From Rhodothermus marinus (GTDB taxonomy: Bacteria > Bacteroidota > Rhodothermia > Rhodothermales > Rhodothermaceae), in NCBI RefSeq assembly GCF_009936275.1, contig NZ_AP019797.1, positions 3,021,890 to 3,085,889 on the forward strand: a DNA stretch of 64,000 bases. The letters are read 5' to 3'. The position numbers and the translations under genes were made by a program. Below, piece after piece: positions 40,636-49,858 of the stretch. The notes under the pieces were generated by a model, which worked only from the letters and a program-made list of their open reading frames with translations, had not been told where the DNA came from and ran no database searches. How positions within the stretch are numbered: the stretch's first letter is position 1; each line of letters begins with the position of its first letter.

Positions 40636-41248
40636 CCTGACCGCCCTGCTGCTGGCCGGCGGACGCAGTCGCCGCTTCGGCACGGACAAGGCTCGGGCCG
40701 TGGTAGGGGGCGTACCCATGCTCCGGCGCATTTACGAGACGGCCTGCGCGCTCACGCCACACGTGCTGCTGAGCGTCCGGGCTGACGGCGACTTCTACCT
40801 CGACCTGGTGCCACTGGAGGTCCCCCGTCTGCTTGATCCCGTCCCGGACGCCGGCCCGCTGGCGGGTCTGGTGGCCGGTCTCCGGGCGGCGCAGACGCCC
40901 TGGCTGCTGGCACTGGCCTGTGACCTGCCCTTCCTGACCGACGACACACTCCGGCAACTGCTGGCCGCCCGCTCACCGGAAACCGCCGCCGTCGTGCCCG
41001 TCACACCCGACGGCCACCGCCAGCCGCTCTGTGCACTCTACCACGTGGACGTGTTGCGCCCGGTAGCTGAAGCCTGGCTCGCCGCCGGTCGCCATGCGCT
41101 GCAGGCGCTACTCGATCGGCTTTCCGTCACGACGCTGCCCGTTCCGGACGCACCGCTACGTAACGTCAACACGCCCGACGATCTACTCGCCGAGCGCGTC
41201 GGTCCGGAGCGGCACATCTCCGGTGGGCGGTCGCCTGCGCGTGATTAA
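40616..41248 (+). CDS. mobA: Molybdenum cofactor guanylyltransferase MobA
   Basis: A 210-residue nucleotidyltransferase. It has the GTP-binding N-terminus LLLAGGRSRRFGTDKA (about 11-26), the metal-binding ACDLPFLT, and the C-terminal VNTPDDL. It attaches GMP to Mo-molybdopterin to form the guanine dinucleotide cofactor. About 22 residues beyond the conserved core overlap the 3' end of the convergent Clp1-like gene (66 bases on opposite strands). Confidence 0.9.
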   Translation: MSPPNADLTALLLAGGRSRRFGTDKARAVVGGVPMLRRIYETACALTPHVLLSVRADGDFYLDLVPLEVPRLLDPVPDAGPLAGLVAGLRAAQTPWLLALACDLPFLTDDTLRQLLAARSPETAAVVPVTPDGHRQPLCALYHVDVLRPVAEAWLAAGRHALQALLDRLSVTTLPVPDAPLRNVNTPDDLLAERVGPERHISGGRSPARD

Positions 41249-42109
41249 TCCGACCTCGGCCGGATCCAGCCGAAAGCGCCCGAACTGAATCGTGGCGATC
41301 TCACGGGCCCGAAACGGCGGCGCCCAGAAATGGAGCCACGCCAGCTCGGCGTCGTACCGGGCCACGATGCCCAGTACACGGGCAAAGCCGTGCCGGTCGC
41401 AGAGGGCCACCAGGCGATGCCGGACCGCCTCGGGGTTGTCCAGTGGTGGCACCATGCCGTGCAACCCGCGGGCCTGCACCGAGAGTCGCCGCAGCCGCGC
41501 CCCGGCAAAGTACCTTTGGAACCGCTCGCGCCGGTAGTCGCTGCGCACCCACCGGTCGCGTTCCTGCACGGCCTCGGCCACCGGTAGTCGCACAATGCGC
41601 GGACGTCGACTCCGTCGAAAGCACCGCAACACCGGTTCCAGCTCGTCTTCGCGCTGCAGCGCCACCACGTAGTCGGGCCGGATCACGTCGAGCATCTGAA
41701 AGAAAAGCTCGCGGCCTGCGTCGTTGGCCATGTGGCCCGGCAGGTCGATCACCAGCCGCTGCGCCCGATGCCAGCGGGCCGCTTCGACCAGACGCACCAG
41801 GCCGCTGAGCATCTGCAGCAGATGGCCCTCGGGCGAGATGTGTCCGACGAACCGGAGCCGGAGCCAGCAGTCGGGGTCGATCGGCACCCGGCTCAACGCC
41901 AGCGTGGTCGGCGGCCCGATGAGCGACTGGCCGGGATCCGCGTCCAGAAAGAGCGTCCGGTAGTGTTCGCTCACCTGCGCGGCCAACCAGCGCGCCAGCG
42001 TCGTCTTGCCGGCGTTGACCGGACCGGCCACCATCAACGTACGCCACGGTGGCCCCTGCAGCAACCGCTCCCGCAGCGTTTCCCATTCGGTCAAAACCGC
42101 AACGTCCAT
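41183..42109 (-). CDS. Clp1/Grc3-family polynucleotide 5'-kinase
   Basis: A 308-residue P-loop protein with a Clp1-type kinase core: Walker A GPVNAGKT at 29-36; the family signature DADPGQ at 56-61 (compare DxDxGQ); GPPTTLAL just after; and a lid/clasp region near RLVIDLPGH. About residues 205-308 resemble the Clp1/Grc3 C-terminal domain. The family phosphorylates RNA 5'-OH ends in eukaryotes and archaea and is sparse in bacteria. It follows an ABC-class ATPase gene by 4 bases. Substrate (RNA or DNA ends) is unknown here. Confidence 0.8.
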   Translation of the reverse strand: MDVAVLTEWETLRERLLQGPPWRTLMVAGPVNAGKTTLARWLAAQVSEHYRTLFLDADPGQSLIGPPTTLALSRVPIDPDCWLRLRFVGHISPEGHLLQMLSGLVRLVEAARWHRAQRLVIDLPGHMANDAGRELFFQMLDVIRPDYVVALQREDELEPVLRCFRRSRRPRIVRLPVAEAVQERDRWVRSDYRRERFQRYFAGARLRRLSVQARGLHGMVPPLDNPEAVRHRLVALCDRHGFARVLGIVARYDAELAWLHFWAPPFRAREIATIQFGRFRLDPAEVGLITRRRPPTGDVPLRTDALGE

Positions 42110-42113
42110 GACT

Positions 42114-43862
42114 TCAGACAGGCGATTCGACGCGCACCCGGAGCGTCCGCAGACGGTTCAGCGCAGCGGCCAGCTCCTGTGCCCGGAAGCCGGCCAGATC
42201 CAGCAGGCCTTTGGGATCGAGCACGTCCAGACCTTCCCGCGCGATGTCTTCCATCACGGCCGCGATGATCTCCGGAACGGTGCGGCGACCGTCCATGTAG
42301 CGACGAAGGGCGTAGGCCAACGCCTGACCGATGGCCCGTGTCTGAGCCACATGCACCAGTTGCTCGACGGCCCTGAGATCGATCACGGCCGTGCCGAGCT
42401 GAAGCGTTTCGCGTCCGCGTGCCCGCACGTAGGTCGCACGCTTCCCCTTCTGGGGCGAAACGCTCGTCGGATCCGGCACGCGCCGCACCGGCGGATCCCG
42501 AAAGGGATCGTCCGGCGCCGGCATCCGCTCGCTCGGAAGCTGGCGGGCAATCTCCCGGGCGGCGTCCGTCACATCCTCCACCCGGTATTCGTGCAACTTG
42601 ATGACGGTGTCGGCCACGTCGAAAAAGTCGCCGCTGGAGCCCACGACCAGGATGGTACTGACGCCGCGTGTTTCGTAAAGCTGACGCACGCGGTCGATGA
42701 ACGGTGTGATGGGTTCCTGCGCACCGGGCACCAGGCGCTGCATACGCCGGTCGCGCACCATGAAGTTCGTAGCGGCCGTGTCTTCGTCGATGAGCAGCAG
42801 CGAGGTCCCCACCTCCAGTGCTTCCTGAATGGCGGCCGCCTGGCTGGTCGATCCGCTGGCGTTCGCCGTCGAAAACGTGCGCGTATCGATGCCCGAGGGC
42901 AGGTTGCGGATGAAGGGCGACAGGTCCACGCCGGCCACGCTACGGCCGTCTTCGGCGCGCACCTTGACGGCGTCGGGCACCGTCACGACAAACTCCCGGC
43001 CGTCGCCGGGCTCGTGGTTGTAGACGCCGCGTTCCAGCGCGCGCAGCAGCGTACTTTTGCCGTGATAGCCGCCGCCCACGATGAGCGTCACGCCGGCCGG
43101 AATGCCCATGCCGGTCAGGCGGCGACCGCTGGGCAGCACGACCTCGCGCCGCAGCGACGGCGGCGAGGCAAACAGCACCGCGCCGGTTTCCAGCGGCCGC
43201 TCATCGACGCCGGACCGTCGGGGCAGGCAGGCACCGTCGGCCACGAACGCCACCAGCCCCCAGGCGGGCAGCTGCGCCCGGAGCCAGGTGGCGTCCTCGT
43301 TCACTTCGGCGAAGGTGCGCACGGTTTCCGGATCGTAGGCGGCAAACCGAAGGCTTTCGCGCACCACGCGCGGCACGTCTTCCAGGAGCAACGCCCGGGC
43401 TTCGTCGGCCGCAATGCGGCGGCCGTGGGCGGGGAGTCCGATGGAAAAGCGGGCTTCGACACCCTCGGCCATCAGGCGTACGGCCGTGCGAGGGAGCACT
43501 TCCTGACCGGGTCGGTCCATTTCGATGCGGCCGCTGTGGCCGCTGCCACGCGGACGGCTGATGCGCCGGGCCTTTTCGGCGAAGGTGCGGGCCAGCAGAT
43601 GGGCCACGCCGACGGCCCGGGCCTCCGAGCCATAGCTCCACTCCGGAAAACCCGCGTGGCGCTGTGGAATCCAGACATGCACGCGGCTGGGCGTGGCGAA
43701 CGGATCGCCCTGCACGTGCACCAGATGCAGCACGAAGTCGCCCAGATCGTAGGCGCCCTGTAGCGTTTTGTAGGCTTTGTAGCCCCGACCGTCGATACGT
43801 GCCAGGCGCCGCCGCAGGTCTTCGACTGTACGCAGCGTTTCCGTAGCGATTCGTGCCGCCAT
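42114..43862 (-). CDS. ABC-class ATPase of the PF09818/MRB1590 type
   Basis: A 582-residue soluble protein with a single ABC-like ATPase in the middle: Walker A GGGYHGKSTLL (near residue 260), a signature-like STSQAAAIQEAL, and Walker B SLLLIDEDTAATNF. An N-terminal region (YKAYKTLQGAYDLGDFVLHL) and a C-terminal helical domain flank it. No membrane segments are visible, so it is not a transporter. The eukaryotic member MRB1590 is tied to mitochondrial RNA editing. I chose the ATG at 43862 because the upstream in-frame ATG lies on the T-run of the glyS terminator. Confidence 0.8.
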   Translation of the reverse strand: MAARIATETLRTVEDLRRRLARIDGRGYKAYKTLQGAYDLGDFVLHLVHVQGDPFATPSRVHVWIPQRHAGFPEWSYGSEARAVGVAHLLARTFAEKARRISRPRGSGHSGRIEMDRPGQEVLPRTAVRLMAEGVEARFSIGLPAHGRRIAADEARALLLEDVPRVVRESLRFAAYDPETVRTFAEVNEDATWLRAQLPAWGLVAFVADGACLPRRSGVDERPLETGAVLFASPPSLRREVVLPSGRRLTGMGIPAGVTLIVGGGYHGKSTLLRALERGVYNHEPGDGREFVVTVPDAVKVRAEDGRSVAGVDLSPFIRNLPSGIDTRTFSTANASGSTSQAAAIQEALEVGTSLLLIDEDTAATNFMVRDRRMQRLVPGAQEPITPFIDRVRQLYETRGVSTILVVGSSGDFFDVADTVIKLHEYRVEDVTDAAREIARQLPSERMPAPDDPFRDPPVRRVPDPTSVSPQKGKRATYVRARGRETLQLGTAVIDLRAVEQLVHVAQTRAIGQALAYALRRYMDGRRTVPEIIAAVMEDIAREGLDVLDPKGLLDLAGFRAQELAAALNRLRTLRVRVESPV

Positions 43863-43898: not shown

Positions 43899-43939
43899 AA
43901 AAAACCGGCCCCGCTGCAACGTTCCTGCAGCGGGGCCGG
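43899..43939 (-). terminator. Intrinsic terminator of glyS
   Basis: On the leftward strand CCGGCCCCGCTGC pairs perfectly with GCAGCGGGGCCGG (13 bp, 9-base loop) and is followed by six T residues. It separates glyS from the ABC-ATPase/Clp1 pair, which therefore needs its own promoter or read-through. Confidence 0.95.
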
Positions 43940-43969
43940 GATTGGAAATCAGCTATTATTCAGTGCTTC

Positions 43970-49100: not shown

Positions 49101-49349
49101 ATGGATGTTCAAGTGGTCTTTCCGGAAGAACTGCTGGTTGCGCTTAAAGAGGATCGCGAATCCTTTCGGAAAAAGGTGCTGCTCTACACACTGGGCAAGC
49201 TGTATGAGCAGGGGCGCATTTCCGCCGGTCTGGGTGCCCGAATCCTGGGCTGTGATCGTCAGGAGTTCTACCGCTTGCTTTCCGAACATGGCTTTTCTGT
49301 GATCGATTATCCCGAAGAGGAACTGACGCGTGAGGCGAATTCGGAATAA
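49101..49349 (+). CDS. UPF0175-family antitoxin
   Basis: An 82-residue protein with the UPF0175 pattern (VVFPEELLVAL, KVLLYTLGKLYEQGRISAGLGARILG, helix-turn-helix-like GCDRQEFYRLLSEHGF). It is followed after 5 bases by a PIN-domain gene and should neutralise it and repress the pair. Confidence 0.85.
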   Translation: MDVQVVFPEELLVALKEDRESFRKKVLLYTLGKLYEQGRISAGLGARILGCDRQEFYRLLSEHGFSVIDYPEEELTREANSE

Positions 49350-49354
49350 GCCCC

Positions 49355-49858
49355 ATGCGGGTTATCGTCAACAGCACCCCTTTGATCGCTCTTTCACTGA
49401 TCGATCAGCTCGATCTTCTCCGCCAGCTTTTCGATGAAGTCGTCGTACCCACCTCGGTCTATCAGGAAATTGTACTGCACGGACAGGGACGCCCCGGGGC
49501 CGATGCCGTCGCTCAAGCCGATTGGATCCAGATTCGCGAACCTGGCCTCCAGGCTACGCTGCCACCGATCCTTCTGGGACTGGATCAGGGAGAAATGGAC
49601 GTATTGCTGCTGGCCCGCGAACTTCAGGCCGACCTGGTGCTGATCGATGAGAAGCTTGGCCGTAGGATTGCCGGAATTCTCGGACTACGGGTACAGGGAA
49701 CCCTCGGCGTACTCTTACGCGCCTACCGAAAACATCTGATCTCACAAGAGGAAGCCGAAGCCGCTGTTCAGAGATTGGCCAACAGCTCGGTCCGGGTAAG
49801 TCCCCGCCTGATTCAATGGTTCAGAGAACAACTCACAAAAGGCACATCCACCGAGTGA
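49355..49858 (+). CDS. PIN-domain toxin, DUF3368 type
   Basis: A 167-residue PIN-fold protein: N-terminal VIVNSTPLIALSLI (Asn-Ser in place of the usual DT/DS, as in DUF3368), LGLDQGEMDVLLLA, and VLIDEKLGRRIA with acidic residues. It is a likely RNase toxin paired with the UPF0175 antitoxin upstream. The structured repeat copy B begins directly after its stop codon. Confidence 0.83.
   Translation: MRVIVNSTPLIALSLIDQLDLLRQLFDEVVVPTSVYQEIVLHGQGRPGADAVAQADWIQIREPGLQATLPPILLGLDQGEMDVLLLARELQADLVLIDEKLGRRIAGILGLRVQGTLGVLLRAYRKHLISQEEAEAAVQRLANSSVRVSPRLIQWFREQLTKGTSTE

Follow-up and report, generated by a model that had tools for sequence, protein, structure and literature searches.

Two genes separated by four bases in Rhodothermus marinus raise the question of whether a bacterium pairs an RNA 5'-kinase with an RNA-remodelling ATPase. 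We analyzed a window of 64,000 nucleotides around them. The original prediction placed a Clp1-family polynucleotide kinase 4 bases after a soluble ABC-class ATPase of the PF09818 type, and the sequence confirmed both positions and the spacing. The ABC ORF (42114-43862, 582 aa counted from its ATG) lies upstream on the minus strand. Four nucleotides part its stop codon from the start of the Clp1-like ORF (TGA AGTC ATG), which covers 41183-42109, as originally predicted, and codes for 308 aa. A glycyl-tRNA synthetase (GlyRS) gene flanks the pair upstream and a convergent mobA downstream, their identities assigned by eye from the translated ORFs. The perfect hairpin and T6 run that follow the GlyRS gene separate it from the pair, which suggests that the Clp1 and ABC genes form their own transcription unit. 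The features are, with positions numbered from the first letter of the window:

41183..42109, minus strand: Clp1-family polynucleotide kinase gene (PF16575; modeled with AF2; Foldseek to Clp1 E=9.8e-19)
41240..41497, minus strand: C-terminal beta-rich region of the Clp1-like protein, residues 205-290, Clp1/Grc3-like by fold alone (model and fold search; no Pfam match)
41531..41545, minus strand: lid region, residues 189-193, with R189 and R193
41927..41944, minus strand: DADPGQ motif, residues 56-61
42002..42025, minus strand: Walker A motif GPVNAGKT, residues 29-36
42114..43862, minus strand: MRB1590-type soluble ABC ATPase gene, PF20446-PF09818-MRB1590_C, 582 aa
42132..42428, minus strand: MRB1590 C-terminal (dimerisation) domain (PF21117, E=1.5e-30)
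42510..43328, minus strand: ABC ATPase domain PF09818 (E=2e-122)
43347..43823, minus strand: ABC_N domain, the RNA-pore domain in MRB1590 (PF20446, E=5e-52)
43416..43421, minus strand: R148-R149, aligned with Arg199-Arg200 of MRB1590 (alignment to 4yix)
43899..43940, minus strand: perfect 14-bp hairpin and T6, apparent terminator of the upstream glycyl-tRNA synthetase gene, read from the sequence

The downstream protein belongs to the Clp1 family, known in bacteria though rare there, by its CLP1_P domain, its motifs and its overall fold. Residues 29-203 matched the whole PF16575 CLP1_P model (positions 1-188 of 188) with E=8.3e-32 and 111 bits, the cut-off being 26.6 bits. All Clp1 catalytic motifs (Walker A, DADPGQ and the lid arginines) are present and are invariant or near-invariant across 34 bacterial homologues. 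The GPVNAGKT and DADPGQ motifs had been predicted, and their key residues are invariant in that set (G29, G34 and K35; D56, D58, G60 and Q61), as are R189 and R193 of the lid, which align with the R..R of Caenorhabditis elegans Clp1. Searched with the plain sequence, the PDB gave C. elegans and human Clp1 as the only relatives at E<0.01; a profile built from the 34 homologues additionally reached NOL9 and Grc3. A comparison of an AlphaFold model with Clp1 had been proposed. The model (pLDDT 91.8, pTM 0.88) had strong PDB matches to Clp1, Grc3 and NOL9 structures only, which took Foldseek ranks 1-23 with all others many orders of magnitude weaker, and so bore out the family assignment together with PF16575. 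Human and C. elegans Clp1 aligned with a TMq of about 0.70 over 303-319 columns, close to the length of the protein, which supports a Clp1-like C-terminal part by fold. The predicted C-terminal domain thus holds as a structure but not as a Pfam match, since the Pfam Clp1 C-terminal family did not match the protein. The fold is common to eukaryotic Clp1, Grc3 and NOL9 (PDB 8hmy, 4ohv, 7y17) over nearly the whole length at about 14-21% identity. Unlike these, the Rhodothermus protein is without the N-terminal domain, and no tRNA-splicing endonuclease or Las1 partner was found for it.

A 2019 study described Clp1 proteins from 144 species of bacteria and showed the Thermus scotoductus enzyme, Ts-Clp1, to be an RNA 5'-kinase; it has a Km for ATP of 2.5 µM, prefers RNA and phosphorylates DNA only when much enzyme is used (PMC6777427). 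Ts-Clp1 and the Rhodothermus protein have in common the PNK domain, the Walker A, DxDxGQ and lid motifs, and a short form that lacks the N-terminal domain of the eukaryotic proteins; Ts-Clp1 is described as about 27 kDa, whereas Rhodothermus Clp1 has about 308 aa with a beta-rich C-terminal region (PMC6777427). By analogy with Ts-Clp1, the Rhodothermus protein very probably phosphorylates 5'-OH RNA. Many bacterial Clp1 genes are annotated as GTPases or regulatory NTPases. That this one codes for such a protein, or for an enzyme acting mainly on DNA ends, seems to us highly improbable: its best sequence and fold matches are all Clp1, Grc3 or NOL9, even though weak generic P-loop matches were also seen and the RNA-clamp region is altered. 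There the CGW of worm Clp1 reads PGH in Rhodothermus and TG-Leu in the bacterial consensus, with the tryptophan replaced. The preference of Ts-Clp1 for RNA also speaks against a mainly DNA-directed enzyme (PMC6777427).

Judged from its three-domain architecture and its RNA-pore residues, the upstream protein is a member of the MRB1590/PF09818 family. Its predicted identity as a PF09818-type soluble ABC ATPase was borne out by the Pfam domains and by PDB sequence matches to 5D6A (E=1e-119) and Trypanosoma brucei MRB1590, also called KRBP72 (4yix; E=3.5e-108). The closest solved relative, over the full length, is 5D6A, a PF09818 structure titled 'Predicted ATPase of the ABC class' that we take to come from Vibrio vulnificus; its pore motif is GRD versus GRR in Rhodothermus. 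Common to MRB1590 and the Rhodothermus protein are the three domains, the ABC signature and the pore Arg-Arg and Phe, with F55 aligned to Phe95 in the 4yix alignment. DPF[A] is retained in 37 of 41 distinct fetched relatives; of the 35 in which the motif can be recognised, every one has the first pore arginine, and the second is variable. MRB1590 binds RNA, and the Arg199-Arg200 double mutant lowers that binding 590-fold (PMC4538832). KRBP72/MRB1590 also requires its own ATPase for editing past an RNA stem-loop (PMC11754742). RNA binding by the Rhodothermus ATPase is predicted from these characterised relatives. MRB1590, however, works with the kinetoplastid editing machinery, which is absent from bacteria, and the genetic partner of the Rhodothermus protein differs.

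A system of this kind was originally thought not to have been described in bacteria. We found no paper on a Clp1-PF09818 pairing in a literature search, and the accessible part of the Ts-Clp1 report mentions no ABC ATPase paired with that enzyme; a bacterial Clp1 RNA kinase is nevertheless published there (PMC6777427), and 5D6A exists. The locus is therefore a new pairing of known families and not a new kind of enzyme. We know of no cellular role for bacterial Clp1 kinases or for bacterial MRB1590-type ATPases.

Across six Rhodothermus species the gap between the ABC and Clp1 genes is 3-5 nt. In two of these (G046 and G054) ABC is preceded by a gene other than GlyRS; this gene is PorV-like in G046, with further surface-protein genes beyond, so Clp1 and ABC stayed paired through rearrangement. 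In pairwise comparisons the ABC gene has dN/dS values of 0.065-0.15 and Clp1 values of 0.06-0.16, the Clp1 values against the seventh species (G151) resting on saturated synonymous sites, and synonymous divergence among the six pair-carrying species reaches about 1 substitution per site. Given these low ratios, both genes are maintained under purifying selection in Rhodothermus. G151 kept Clp1 and has no ABC gene in its genome; a PorV-like gene directly precedes Clp1 there (L131:8549-10616), where G046 has the ABC gene. It is a clean presence/absence difference, so Clp1 is independent of its neighbor. A frameshift splits the Clp1 frame in the draft genome G054 (L130:8313-9186), the ABC gene being intact, and may be an assembly error. 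Downstream of Clp1, mobA is equally linked in every Rhodothermus species whose sequence covers it. As this is no less faithful than the linkage of ABC, within-genus linkage is near background and is weak evidence alone.

We also surveyed the two families outside the genus. Among 245 genomes of the class, eight encode Clp1: seven are from Rhodothermus and the eighth is a MAG that belongs to another family (G069/KatS3mg041). The ABC gene is in six, all of them Rhodothermus and all with it adjoining Clp1, counting one genome (G531) whose contig breaks off within Clp1. Across the host phylum, 198 evenly sampled genomes gave no further clear case of either family. In the phylum of a deltaproteobacterial relative, also with 198 genomes, 27 encode Clp1, 43 the ABC ATPase and 10 both, where 5.9 would be expected by chance (Fisher test, one-sided p=0.039, genomes treated without ancestry correction). 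Of 14 named control genomes, which were scored for presence only, Thermus composti and Methanocaldococcus jannaschii have both families. Among the genomes surveyed for adjacency, from the class, the host phylum and the deltaproteobacterial phylum, the pairing is confined to Rhodothermus. We rejected a conserved cross-phylum Clp1-PF09818 operon for these genomes, as the genes are adjacent in 0 of the 10 deltaproteobacterial co-carriers and in none of the 245 class genomes outside Rhodothermus. The adjacency, for which a survey across Rhodothermota and other phyla had been proposed, thus extends beyond one strain to six species but not beyond the genus.

Elsewhere the neighbors of Clp1 vary and include, by eye, genes for a DUF72-like protein, a TGS-type GTPase, a macrodomain protein and a QueH-like protein, so a consistent Clp1 partner in other bacteria was rejected. 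The neighbors of the ABC gene are variable too. In one genome of the deltaproteobacterial phylum (L137:5671-7385) Clp1 starts at the final base of a macrodomain-like ORF, another possible RNA-end partner, and in two others (L140, L142; by eye) the PF09818 ATPase gene sits between RadA-like and LarA-like genes. Clp1 relatives were not found in plasmids, phages or IMG/VR, and a mobile-element origin was rejected on that ground. Some plasmids carry relatives of the ABC protein, as do three 'phage' records that lack annotation, with no evidence of pairing.

The RNA-end enzymes of the host bear on what a 5'-kinase could do there. RtcB joins 5'-OH ends and requires the 5'-OH, and it is present in the host genome. 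Its ORF (988 aa, L155:890-3856, G000:C1:591189-594155) is interrupted close to the metal-binding motif by what looks like an intein of about 480 aa (...GYDIN|CLTGEARVL ... VVSN|CGVRLL...), and the RtcB family match is split into two pieces. The complete genome gave no PF09414 RNA ligase, the Rnl1 family PF09511 being outside the search, and only sub-cut-off matches to RNase J, which was therefore set aside as an acceptor of 5'-phosphorylated RNA. No ligase, phosphatase or Hen1-like gene was recognised in the immediate neighborhood of the pair. At 49101-49858 the window has a small ORF pair that by eye resembles a UPF0175-type gene and then a DUF3368/PIN-like gene, in toxin-antitoxin style.

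A 5'-kinase is by its chemistry a healing enzyme, and Ts-Clp1 has kinase activity (PMC6777427), as would suit a pathway in which Clp1 phosphorylates damaged 5'-OH RNA, an ATP-dependent RNA ligase reseals it and the ABC ATPase holds the RNA. We consider this pathway improbable in Rhodothermus. With RtcB present and neither a PF09414 ligase nor an above-cut-off RNase J detected, classic heal and seal is unsupported, no enzyme for the remaining steps was recognised beside the pair, and phosphorylation would block the RtcB route. The predicted RNA end-processing or repair module accordingly stands as far as the families and their linkage in one genus go, but lacks both adjacency elsewhere and an evident sealing step, given the absence of PF09414.

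We tentatively propose, at somewhat under an even chance, that the two genes are a unit in which a Clp1 5'-OH RNA kinase and an RNA-remodelling ATPase act together. A dimeric ATPase of the MRB1590/COG3044 type would open and close its arginine-lined pore with the ATP cycle and so melt or remodel structured RNA. The 5'-OH fragments exposed in this way could then be phosphorylated by Clp1, which would transfer the gamma-phosphate of an NTP onto their ends. Ends so modified would no longer be rejoinable by RtcB, and the fragments would be committed to 5'-monophosphate-dependent processing or turnover. Both the cooperation and the fate of the phosphorylated RNA are hypothetical. A stronger version, by analogy a dedicated bacterial RNA-end machine whose pore ATPase unfolds RNA and feeds the 5'-OH end to Clp1, appears doubtful to us; such a putative machine could be likened to eukaryotic nuclease-kinase or editing complexes.

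About as likely as cooperation, and itself close to an even chance, is that an ordinary Clp1 and a COG3044 ATPase came into one transcription unit by a single rearrangement and have independent functions. The restriction of the pairing to one genus, the lack of adjacency in all 10 deltaproteobacterial co-carriers and the varied neighbors of both genes elsewhere fit such incidental neighbors, as does G151, which retains Clp1 alone at the same site behind the surface-protein gene that precedes ABC in G046. Cooperation is weakened further by the equal linkage of mobA, the broken Clp1 of G054, and the want of a PF09414 ligase or above-cut-off RNase J to take the 5'-phosphorylated product. The 3-5 nt gap, held in six species despite the synonymous divergence, is less readily explained by chance adjacency, and both proteins have RNA-related relatives. 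The kept catalytic motifs and pore residues, the dN/dS values and the weak co-occurrence in the deltaproteobacterial phylum likewise favor joint action. As the pairing is seen in one genus only, a joint RNA-processing machine of Clp1 and the ABC ATPase is possible, not demonstrated. The putative Rhodothermus operon makes a defined Clp1-ABC pair available for experiments in a thermophile that can be cultured, and it could tie the 5'-OH metabolism of bacterial RNA to factors that process and edit RNA in eukaryotes.
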